Shown here in pieces: positions 4,029 to 58,544 of a stretch of DNA of 64,000 bases. Each line of letters opens with the position of its first letter. The first letter of the stretch is position 1. The stretch covers positions 62,001-126,000 of the forward strand of contig NZ_QTJU01000001.1 of the NCBI RefSeq assembly GCF_003412455.1. The letters are read 5' to 3'. Under the pieces are notes generated by a model. It worked only from the letters and a program-made list of their open reading frames with translations, did no database searches and was not told where the DNA came from. Source of the stretch: Deminuibacter soli (GTDB lineage Bacteria > Bacteroidota > Bacteroidia > Chitinophagales > Chitinophagaceae). The position numbers were made by a program, and so were the translations under genes.

Positions 4029-4134
4029 CCCACACCAACAGGTACCACCCTGCCAAAAAAGAAATATTAAATCTTTTCCGCAGGAATGAAAATTCATTAA
4101 CTTGAACTAAATTAGTTGCATAGCTAACCAATTT

Positions 4135-4170
4135 AAGCTGCGAGCTACGAGCTTCTAGCTGCAAGCTTTT
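4135..4170. repeat. Left AGCTNNN heptamer repeat array flanking the S23-type gene
   Basis: Five tandem heptamers, each AGCT plus three variable bases, begin at 4136, 4143, 4150, 4157 and 4164, exactly 7 bp apart. The array ends 18 bp before the S23-type start codon. A related array in opposite sense lies at 4592-4633, just beyond the gene. Confidence 0.75.
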
Positions 4171-4187
4171 TAAAAACTCAGTTGACT

Positions 4188-4541
4188 ATGAGGGATTTTA
4201 AGAAATTGCTTGTGTGGCAGAAAGGGATTGATTTGTTTATCTATACAGACAAACTCGTTAGAAAATTGCCAGTTGCTGAACGTTACGAAACATGTTCTCA
4301 ACTCAGGCGTGCTGCATTATCCATTCCTTCCAATATCGCGGAAGGAAGTGCATATCACAGCCAGGCGCAATACAGGATATACCTGGAGAGATCGCTCGGA
4401 TCCGCTTTTGAAACTGAAACTGTATTGATTGCTATTGACAAATCATATCCTGACAGCTACGCTCATGAAATTGCGTACTGCACGTCTTTGGTGCTGGAGA
4501 TTCAAAAGATGTTGATGGCATTTCTTGTGAAATTGAAATAA
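4188..4541 (+). CDS. Four-helix-bundle protein (S23 / 23S rRNA intervening-sequence family)
   Basis: A 117-aa protein matching the S23/IVP family (TIGR02436, PF05635) by the pattern RDFKKLLVWQKG near the N-terminus, LRRAALSIPSNIAEG in the middle and YLERSLGSAFETETVL in the third helix. Family members are all-alpha pentameric bundles. Some lie inside intervening sequences of 23S rRNA genes, and the related Avd protein works with diversity-generating reverse transcriptases. The cellular role of free-standing copies is not established. A TTG two codons upstream (4182) could start translation, but the ATG at 4188 is preferred. The gene is isolated between a kinase and a beta-oxidation gene. It is tightly bracketed by AGCTNNN heptamer arrays, which suggests it travels as a small element. 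Confidence 0.85.
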   Translation: MRDFKKLLVWQKGIDLFIYTDKLVRKLPVAERYETCSQLRRAALSIPSNIAEGSAYHSQAQYRIYLERSLGSAFETETVLIAIDKSYPDSYAHEIAYCTSLVLEIQKMLMAFLVKLK

Positions 4542-4591
4542 AGCGGTTGAAAATAATTGTCATTCTCTGATATAATACCTATTCAGTCTAC

Positions 4592-4633
4592 AGGCTCAGG
4601 CTCGCAGCTCGAGGCTTGCAGCTTGTAGCTAAA
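4592..4633. repeat. Right RGCTNNN heptamer repeat array
   Basis: RGCT cores occur at 4593, 4599, 4606, 4613, 4620 and 4627, mostly 7 bp apart, between the S23-type stop (4541) and the next start codon (4644). Read on the minus strand the heptamers are AGCTACA, AGCTGCA, AGCCTCG and AGCTGCG. These resemble the left array read on the plus strand, so the two arrays act as degenerate inverted repeats. Confidence 0.7.
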
Positions 4634-4643
4634 AAATGTTCAT

Positions 4644-7022
4644 ATGAAAAGAGTTATCAAAAAGGTTGCAGTACTTGGAAGCGGCGTAATGGGGTCGAGG
4701 ATTGCCTGTCATTTTGCAGGCGTGGGGCTGCAGGTATTGCTGCTCGACATTGTTCCGAAAGATTTGCCTGCTGATGCCAAACCGGCGCAGCGCAACAAAA
4801 TTGTCAATGATGCCTTACAGGCTGCTGTAAAAAGCAACCCGTCTCCCCTGTACACCAAAGACGCACTCAAACGCATCAGTACCGGCAATTTTGACGATAA
4901 CATGAAAGATATCGCCACCTACGACTGGGTAATTGAAGTGGTGGTAGAGCGGCTGGATATCAAGCAACAGGTATACGAAAAAGTAGAGCAGTTCCGCAAG
5001 CCGGGCACGCTCATTACTTCCAATACTTCGGGTATTCCCATCAACCTGCTGTCTAAAGGGCGCAGTGATGATTTCAGGAAGCATTTCTGCGGCACACACT
5101 TTTTTAACCCGCCGCGCTACCTGCGTTTGCTCGAGATTATTCCTACCAGAGAAACAGATCCGGAGATCATTGATTTCCTGATGCACTACGGCGACCTGCA
5201 CCTCGGCAAAACCACGGTGCTGGCGAAAGACACACCGGCATTCATCGCCAACCGCATTGGTGTGTTTGGCATTATGAGCATTTTCAACAACATGGAAAAG
5301 CTGGGTCTTACTATCGATGAAGTGGATGCATTGACAGGCCCGCTTATTGGCCGGCCAAAATCAGCCACCTTCCGTACGGCAGATGTGGTGGGCATTGATA
5401 CCCTGGTGAATGTGGCCAAAGGCGTGGCGCAGAACTGCCCGGATGATGAAGCCAGGGCAGTATTTGCCATTCCCGCATGGCTCGAAACCATGGTGAACAA
5501 CAAATGGCTGGGGGATAAAACCGGGCAAGGGTTCTTCCAGAAAAGAAAGAGTGCAGGCGGTGAAAAGGAAATTGACGTGCTTGATTTAAAAACACTCGAA
5601 TACGGCCCCAGGCAGAAACCCAAATTCGCTTCGGTAGAAGCCGCCAAACCTGTAGAAGACCTGAAACAACGCCTCAAAATGCTGGCGGCAGGACAAGACA
5701 AGGCTGCTGAGTTTCTGCGTCATTTTCACTATGCATTGTTCTCTTATATCTCGCACCGCATCCCTGAAATAAGCGATGAACTGTATCGTATTGACGATGC
5801 CATGATGGCCGGTTTTGGCTGGGAAATAGGCGCATTTGAAAGCTGGGATACATTGGGTGTAGCCCGGTCAACCGAAGCACTGAAAGCAGCTGGTTATACC
5901 GTGGCGCCATGGGTAGAGGAAATGTTGCAGAAAGGCAATACCAGCTTTTATAAAATAGAACACGGCAAACGTTTATACTACGATGTGGCCTCGCAAACTT
6001 ATAAACCCGTGCCGGGTGGTGATGCCTTTATTATACTCAATCACCACAAGGAAAAAACAGTATGGAAAAACAGCAATGCATCGCTGGTAGATATCGGGGA
6101 TGATGTGGTGGCCCTGCAATGGAACACCAAAATGAACAGCATTGGCAGCGAAGTACTCGAGGCATTGAACAAAAGCATTGGCATTGCGGAAGAAAAATTC
6201 AAAGGACTGGTAATAGCCAATGATGGCCCCAATTTCAGCGCAGGCGCCAATGTGGGTATGATATTTATGTTTGCGGTTGAACAGGAATATGATGAGCTGG
6301 ATATGGCCATCCGCCTGTTCCAGAACAGCATGATGCGTGTGAGATATTCCGCTGTACCTATTGTAGTAGCACCACATGGCTTAACACTGGGCGGCGGTTG
6401 CGAAATGAACCTGCATGCTGATAAAGTGTATGCTGCAGCAGAAACCTATATCGGCCTGGTGGAGCTGGGTGTGGGCTTAATCCCCGGCGGCGGCGGCACC
6501 AAGGAGTTTGTGTTGCGCGCAGGTGATGAAATGCACGAAGACGAACCGGAAACCATTACCCTAAAAAACCGCTTCTTCAATATTGCCACTGCCAAAGTTG
6601 CCACCTCGGGCTTTGAAGCGTACGAACTGGGCATACTGCGCAAAGGCCACGATGAAGTGGTGCTGAACCAGGGTCGTAGAATTGCAGAAGCAAAAAATGC
6701 GGTGATAGAAATGTACAACCAGGGCTACACCATGCCTGTGCAACGCAAAGATGTAAAAGTGCTGGGCCGCTCTGCACTCGGTGCCTTGTATGCAGGCATA
6801 CATGCCATGTGGCGCGGTAATTATGCTACCGATCACGATGCACTGGTAGCACGCAAGCTGGCATACGTCATGTGCGGCGGTGATTTAAGTGAACAAAGCC
6901 TCGTATCTGAACAATATTTACTTGACCTGGAACGTGAAGCCTTCCTGAGTTTGTGCGGCGAGCGCAAAACGCTCGAACGCATACAGGGCGTGCTTAAAAC
7001 AGGCAAGCCGGTAAGAAATTAA
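4644..7022 (+). CDS. fadN: 3-hydroxyacyl-CoA dehydrogenase / enoyl-CoA hydratase fusion (FadN-like)
   Basis: Predicted to catalyse the hydration and NAD-dependent 3-hydroxyacyl-CoA oxidation steps of fatty-acid beta-oxidation. The dehydrogenase half comes first: the NAD-binding motif VLGSGVMGSRIA starts at residue 10, and the signature HFFNPPRYLRLLEIIP is at about 153-168. The crotonase half follows, with oxyanion residues in FSAGANVG, LTLGGGCEM and VELGVGLIPGGGGTKE. The order (dehydrogenase then hydratase) and the length of 792 aa match Bacillus FadN rather than E. coli FadB/FadJ. Thiolase and acyl-CoA dehydrogenase genes, which usually follow it in Bacteroidota, are absent here, and a strong terminator sits at 7052-7079. 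All visible catalytic motifs are intact. Confidence 0.93.
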   Translation: MKRVIKKVAVLGSGVMGSRIACHFAGVGLQVLLLDIVPKDLPADAKPAQRNKIVNDALQAAVKSNPSPLYTKDALKRISTGNFDDNMKDIATYDWVIEVVVERLDIKQQVYEKVEQFRKPGTLITSNTSGIPINLLSKGRSDDFRKHFCGTHFFNPPRYLRLLEIIPTRETDPEIIDFLMHYGDLHLGKTTVLAKDTPAFIANRIGVFGIMSIFNNMEKLGLTIDEVDALTGPLIGRPKSATFRTADVVGIDTLVNVAKGVAQNCPDDEARAVFAIPAWLETMVNNKWLGDKTGQGFFQKRKSAGGEKEIDVLDLKTLEYGPRQKPKFASVEAAKPVEDLKQRLKMLAAGQDKAAEFLRHFHYALFSYISHRIPEISDELYRIDDAMMAGFGWEIGAFESWDTLGVARSTEALKAAGYTVAPWVEEMLQKGNTSFYKIEHGKRLYYDVASQTYKPVPGGDAFIILNHHKEKTVWKNSNASLVDIGDDVVALQWNTKMNSIGSEVLEALNKSIGIAEEKFKGLVIANDGPNFSAGANVGMIFMFAVEQEYDELDMAIRLFQNSMMRVRYSAVPIVVAPHGLTLGGGCEMNLHADKVYAAAETYIGLVELGVGLIPGGGGTKEFVLRAGDEMHEDEPETITLKNRFFNIATAKVATSGFEAYELGILRKGHDEVVLNQGRRIAEAKNAVIEMYNQGYTMPVQRKDVKVLGRSALGALYAGIHAMWRGNYATDHDALVARKLAYVMCGGDLSEQSLVSEQYLLDLEREAFLSLCGERKTLERIQGVLKTGKPVRN

Positions 7023-58523: not shown

Positions 58524-58544
58524 AACAAGCTGCAAGCTTGTTTT
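58524..58544. repeat. Two-unit AGCTNNN heptamer hairpin
   Basis: AACAAGCT (58524-58531), three bases, then AGCTTGTT (58535-58542) form a perfect 8-bp hairpin. AGCT cores at 58528 and 58535 are 7 bp apart, the same period and unit (AGCTGCA) as the arrays around the S23-type gene. It may also act as a second terminator. Confidence 0.6.

Follow-up and report, generated by a model that had tools for sequence, protein, structure and literature searches.

Within the window, i.e., the whole stretch of 64,000 nucleotides of Deminuibacter soli DNA that was analyzed, a small gene of the S23 type lies between two inverted arrays of short tandem repeats. The features are listed below with their coordinates and strands.

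4112..4131, no strand assigned: operator-like motif TTAGTTGCATAGCTAACCAA, upstream of the S23 unit; the same motif stands before the orthologous gene in relatives
4136..4167, plus strand: left array of five AGCT cores (AGCTGCGAGCTACGAGCTTCTAGCTGCAAGCT) at 4136, 4143, 4150, 4157, and 4164, exactly 7 bp apart
4188..4541, plus strand: S23 (23S_rRNA_IVP) four-helix-bundle gene of 117 aa, with its ATG at 4188 and its stop at 4541
4593..4630, minus strand: right array, the inverted counterpart of the left one, with six RGCT cores (GGCTCAGGCTCGCAGCTCGAGGCTTGCAGCTTGTAGCT) at 4593, 4599, 4606, 4613, 4620, and 4627
4644..7022, plus strand: downstream host gene of the 3-hydroxyacyl-CoA dehydrogenase/enoyl-CoA hydratase type, as read from the sequence, whose leader received the unit
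58528..58538, no strand assigned: two-core AGCT array without S23, part of the palindrome AACAAGCTGCAAGCTTGTT and perhaps a short copy of the dispersed kind

The first-pass annotation of this DNA had described an S23-type gene with AGCT cores at exact 7-bp steps from 4136 to 4164 on its left and inverted RGCT cores at mostly 7-bp steps from 4593 to 4627 on its right. All of this was recovered on re-reading, the steps of the right array being 6, 7, 7, 7, and 7 bp. The ORF matched the profiles PF05635 and TIGR02436 with 81.7 and 82.2 bits (curated cut-offs of 33.8 and 24, respectively) and is a member of the S23 family, the only family matched between the two arms. With equal base frequencies, a run of five AGCT cores spaced by 7 bp would arise about 6e-8 times per 64 kb by chance. 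The folding of the arrays as RNA, which the annotation had proposed as a check, was found in the predicted fold of positions 4130-4640, where the arms pair around the S23 ORF (z -3.64). A two-unit copy of the heptamer reported at 58524-58544 is present and shares its AACAAGCT...AGCTTGTT form with other arrays in this genome, but taken alone it is near chance, with about one such array expected per window. The unit itself is located in protein-gene surroundings, between the motif TTAGTTGCATAGCTAACCAA and the start codon (4644) of the 3-hydroxyacyl-CoA dehydrogenase gene. The palindrome-like motif TTAGTTGCATAACTAACTAA is conserved before this gene in most genera of the family (window 4112-4131; L138-L166) and is probably an operator.

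Inverted arms of period 7 were found to accompany most S23 genes. Arms were scored by alignment of the upstream flank to the reverse-complemented downstream flank, with a threshold of at least 14. In a sample of 60 S23 loci, taken from about 18 genera belonging to the family of the window genome, 52 of 60 S23 genes (87%) reached this score compared to 6% of 393 control genes, while only 7% of mismatched flank pairs and 7% of flanks in direct orientation did so. Arms occurred at 84% of 118 S23 genes and at 14.5% of size- and gap-matched genes (p 4e-29, with loci that are not fully independent). Across about 140 S23 genes, 76-87% were bracketed by inverted arrays of mostly 7-bp period (9-15% in controls vs 84%), and about 15-25% of S23 genes had no detectable arms. 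Period-7 arrays occurred at 2.0 per kb beside S23 genes and at 0.12 per kb elsewhere. Among the array periods at S23 genes, 7 was enriched, 8 weakly so, and the multiple 14 also appeared, while all others were near zero. Arrays hold about 4-6 heptamer units. Chance or composition as the source of the arms was rejected by the period test and the two control comparisons. The search for AGCTNNN arrays around S23 genes that had been suggested thus returned a strong enrichment of inverted arrays, but AGCTNNN is only one of many words borne by S23 loci and was rejected as a defining feature.

The same plan was present at eight of eight plasmid S23 loci (seven cyanobacterial, one from Riemerella) and at 60 of 79 S23 loci in named genomes, mostly Bacteroidota. 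It also appeared in records of Atribacterota, Patescibacteria, Clostridia, and Chlorobiota, some of which are metagenome bins. An S23 gene between heptamer arrays is a recurrent insert between operon genes in many bacterial phyla. Bacteroidota-like S23 genes were also seen in records labelled Methanophagales, Limnohabitans, and Treponema (within L225-L303), some of which may be contaminant contigs within metagenome bins. An alignment of diverse S23 proteins gave no conserved stretch for scanning. Carriage of the unit by phages was rejected: a phage collection queried with the XCC0516 sequence gave no match, and some of the 11 S23 loci in viral contigs lack arms.

The units sit tightly in the gaps between operon genes. 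Both neighbours were co-directional with S23 at 116 of 137 loci and both opposite at 7. Relative to the upstream stop codon, the left arm begins at a median of -3 bp (IQR -11 to 6); for the end of the right arm relative to the next start, the median is 5 bp (IQR -6 to 16). Purines are frequent in left arms (0.63), which contain 0.70 stop trinucleotides per 7 bp compared to 0.36 in their reverse complement; all three frames are closed in 61 of 103 left arms and in 22 of 103 reverse complements. Recurrent addresses are argC-argD, moxR-DUF58, hemB-hemL, uridine phosphorylase-dapF, and pepP-pssA, where the names of chromosomal neighbours are our own reading of the translations. In Cyanobacteria, cas6-cas4 recurs and RNR beta-alpha is another site. 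The S23 units L222 and L320 (plasmids of Pseudanabaena galeata and Anabaena sp. 90) lie within type I-D CRISPR operons, in the cas6/cas4 gap. A CRISPR link of '23S rRNA IVP' has been listed (PMC10910872), which may reflect passenger units such as these and not a CRISPR function.

The region is likely to be a free-standing, mRNA-borne selfish unit of the intervening-sequence type, with a logic similar to that of REPINs and RAYTs. The minimal unit would measure about 0.45-0.55 kb and consist of the left heptamer array, the S23 gene, and the inverted right array. It would have been inserted into an operon stop/start gap, in the window into the 5' leader of the downstream gene, and would be transcribed together with the host operon. 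Through pairing of its arms, the unit could then loop S23 out in a hairpin open to RNase III cleavage. We propose that such a cut would be harmless because each neighbouring gene retains its own translation signals, and that the upstream protein would still terminate because the left arm holds stop codons.

In the family tree, S23 proteins cluster by chromosomal address, with 12 groups in 11 changes compared to 27.7 when shuffled, which indicates that most S23 genes are vertically inherited. They are under purifying selection with dN/dS of 0.02-0.16, dS being saturated in some pairs. Near-identical S23 copies within one genome were seen only in a recombined plasmid segment. The small mobile unit suggested by the first-pass annotation is supported in large part, as a discrete unit with empty sites and many addresses, but its copies are mostly old vertical residents. 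Word similarity was compared with S23 identity for 115 loci. Words were alike in 1-2% of pairs below 35% protein identity, while similar words occurred in 8, 33, and 90% of pairs at S23 identities of 45-55, 55-65, and 65-80%, respectively, across unrelated addresses. None of 5000 permutations reached the observed mean of this word-S23 link, and similar words in opposite orientation practically never occurred. In the clade of the window S23 (L083, L055, L053, L066, L060, and L078), all words are of the type AGC(T)NNN, as judged by eye from the locus list and the tree. Since the word tracks the S23 clade across addresses, gene and arrays travel and evolve as a single unit. This link, the placement at operon stop/start gaps, and the multiplicity of words go beyond the earlier annotation.

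Vertical inheritance at conserved addresses and purifying selection on S23 would also fit a domesticated regulatory module. Here, S23 would be a ring-shaped RNA- or DNA-binding regulator, with a logic like that of TRAP or CsrA, which binds tandem heptamers; the flanking arrays would autoregulate S23 and tune the operon, and dispersed arrays would form its regulon. The arrays, with about 4-6 units, come close to the five subunits of the Xanthomonas S23 ring (PMC4990558), and a regulatory role has been proposed for the heptamers of Beggiatoaceae (PMC4679880). Against such a module, the host genes are functionally unrelated (argC-argD, hemB-hemL, moxR, RNR, cas6-cas4, and a Tra-type gene) and the addresses vary between genera. 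The unit is also dispensable, as near-identical relatives with empty sites show, and we regard the module as unlikely.

At the window address, the motif TTAGTTGCATAGCTAACCAA and the dehydrogenase gene occur without the unit in about 25 related genera, where the motif lies 24-190 bp before the start codon. The presence of this motif ahead of the dehydrogenase start in relatives defines the left boundary of the empty site. One related genome (G014) carries an orthologous unit with AGC arrays at this address. The comparison of strains for empty sites, as had been recommended, gave precise, array-free empty sites at 82-95% DNA identity. The site next to an integrase gene is filled in Calothrix brevissima and empty in Nostoc carneum, Tolypothrix, and Aulosira (plasmids, 82-91% DNA identity), and the Calothrix brevissima unit occupies what is a 3-bp stop/start gap in the empty relatives. 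The site at a Tra-type gene is filled in Nostoc C052 and N. edaphicum and empty in C057 (95% DNA identity), while the RNR gene site is filled in N. edaphicum and empty in Calothrix NIES-4105 (86% DNA identity). No arrays were present at these three cyanobacterial plasmid empty sites, and no clear target-site duplication was seen by eye at the three empty/filled junctions. On the plasmids of C052 and N. edaphicum, the unit shows 99-100% identity, apart from one 7-bp unit gained or lost, and its flanks 76-97%. The higher identity of the unit in this pair indicates that it has spread more recently than the DNA around it, through recombination or insertion. The annotation would have been refuted had arrays shown no enrichment around S23 genes and no presence/absence polymorphism; instead, the enrichment is strong and empty sites exist.

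S23-less array pairs were also found at the Tra-type site, one with the same word in Nostoc ATCC 53789 and one with a different word on a C057 plasmid (L326 and L332). Such inverted pairs without S23, and the location of the Coxiella rRNA intervening sequence in a hairpin helix (PMC4990558), would agree with arrays as a passive host feature, produced by slippage and hairpin correction, into whose hairpins S23 genes land. However, arrays are missing from the empty sites of three loci, the word follows the S23 clade from one address to another, and S23-free relatives have no GTGA arrays. The idea that arrays were target hairpins before S23 arrived is therefore disfavoured, and this explanation is very improbable.

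Arrays away from S23 genes were located in noncoding DNA at one tenth of the S23-adjacent density. An inverted partner within 1.5 kb was found for 30 of 74 S23-distant arrays, often 5-100 bp off. Genome-wide array densities rest on pattern matches and sampled stretches. The sampled stretches of six S23-free genomes (340 kb) contained 2 arrays, those of seven S23 genomes (464 kb) about 40. GTGARTN triples occurred in 0 of 15 S23-free and in 23 of 46 other genomes (p 4e-4, no phylogenetic correction). The AGCT count alone separated carriers from S23-free genomes weakly (p 0.05), and the S23-free genome G036 had 5 AGCT triples. S23-less arrays matched the S23 words of their own genome with 14.2 compared to 9.3 for other genomes, the own genome being the better match in 11 of 15 genomes. 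The match was strong in G021, G022, and G052 and weak or absent in G008, G028, G030, and G053. In the selfish-unit reading, which we favour, S23, of which a solved relative is a homopentamer, would most likely recognise its own word, and the S23-less dispersed arrays would be dependent copies, which a resident S23 unit spreads in trans or maintains, much as RAYTs do with REPINs.

The likeness to 23S rRNA intervening sequences that had been pointed out was confirmed by the S23 ORF within terminal inverted repeats, and these sequences are real relatives of the unit. In Coxiella, RNase III cuts the intervening sequence, which has a terminal stem of 28 bp and carries tandem GACAGAT heptamers ahead of the S23 ORF (PMC4990558). 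Intervening sequences of Coxiella, Leptospira, and others share with the present unit an S23 ORF in about 0.4-0.5 kb and terminal inverted repeats that pair in RNA, a pairing that is predicted for the window. While they are located in rRNA helices, the present unit lies in mRNA operon gaps, its arms consist of several heptamer units each, with words specific to the clade, its S23 is under purifying selection, and related arrays are dispersed in the genome. No rRNA was found near 14 S23 loci of other groups, by which an rRNA context for S23 genes of odd phyla was rejected.

REPIN/RAYT (TnpA-REP) systems share a resident vertical gene between inverted repeats and, on average though not in every carrier genome, dispersed repeats related to it (see also PMC3116915 and PMC8266576). 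In contrast to them, the present unit has no Y1 HUH transposase, some carrier genomes lack Y1_Tnp, and the repeats are tandem heptamer arrays with many words per genome instead of single palindromes. Unlike an insertion sequence or DNA transposon, the unit has no transposase and no clear target duplication at three junctions. Among known heptamer families, about 185 GGGAATC arrays are present per Xanthomonas genome, 70-75 cases being inverted pairs (PMC4692102), GGGGA(C/T)T heptamers represent the Nostoc family (PMC4692102, PMC4679880), and TAACTGA arrays are known from Beggiatoaceae, Cyanobacteria, and some Bacteroidetes (PMC4679880). The families of Xanthomonas, Nostoc, and Beggiatoaceae also form intergenic arrays, in Xanthomonas often as inverted pairs, whereas the present arrays bracket S23 genes and share their words. 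The term S23 is absent from the texts of PMC4692102 and PMC4679880. Solved S23 relatives are 2GSC (XCC0516) and 2RLD, and the Xanthomonas S23 protein is reported to form a ring of five subunits (PMC4990558).

S23 is homologous to Avd, the essential accessory protein of diversity-generating retroelements (PF05635; PMC10053308), which differ from the present unit by their reverse transcriptase, TR, and VR. Although this homology, the 116:7 sense bias within co-directional pairs, and the one Y1_Tnp gene of Deminuibacter soli could point to cargo moved in trans by an Avd/DGR-like reverse transcriptase partner or a Y1/REP transposase, such dependence is not supported and highly unlikely, as RVT_1 matches are absent from Deminuibacter soli and most S23 carriers, and the S23-rich genomes G025 and G053 lack matches to RVT_1 and Y1_Tnp alike.

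The heptamer-bracketed S23 insert suggests a widespread, apparently undescribed kind of minimal selfish element. In the open literature, a scope leaving out most subscription journals and all preprints, no paper was found that joins S23 genes and heptamer arrays as a general rule. To our knowledge, S23 has no catalytic function; this, the mainly vertical inheritance, and the partial cognate relation of arrays and S23 words are the main weaknesses of the selfish-unit reading. The finding ties together the function of the widespread S23 family, the way in which rRNA intervening sequences arose, and the heptamer repeats known from many genomes. If the reading is right, few known selfish units that encode a protein are as small, their harmless lifestyle within operons is new, and clear predictions follow, e.g., for XCC0516 in Xanthomonas. 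More tentatively, and with considerable doubt, S23 may be a sequence-specific array protein whose pentamer reads tandem heptamers, about one per subunit, and which with host enzymes multiplies and spreads its own unit and the S23-less arrays. A single selfish family without a transposase would in that case have left much of the heptamer repeat content seen in Bacteroidota, Cyanobacteria, and perhaps Xanthomonas, and would also be the source of rRNA intervening sequences.

The Deminuibacter soli genome (5.83 Mb), for which the nearest named S23 loci point to Chitinophagaceae as the most likely family, contains 178 AGCTN3AGCTN3AGCT matches compared to about 0.35 expected. It has five S23 genes, with AGCT arrays only at the one in the window. 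The other four are flanked on both sides by inverted short tandem repeats of other sequence, as seen by eye, and two of these four fall below the later arm-score threshold. TCGANNN (AGCTNNN read backwards) was rejected as a neutral control, being itself a word of this genome. At L199, L200, L203, L204, and L210, all from Deminuibacter soli, AGCT arrays are combined with arrays of the TCGA word and with longer repeats (CGAGAATCGAGACATCGACACGTCGAGACTATCTTAGCGAGTGCC; TCGCCGGAGGCGATTTA) into composite intergenic mosaics, some of them in tandem. At L197 (G056:C1:23000-27000), identical AGCT array stretches recur every 144 bp (locus positions 1771, 1915, and 2059) and form a higher-order tandem repeat.
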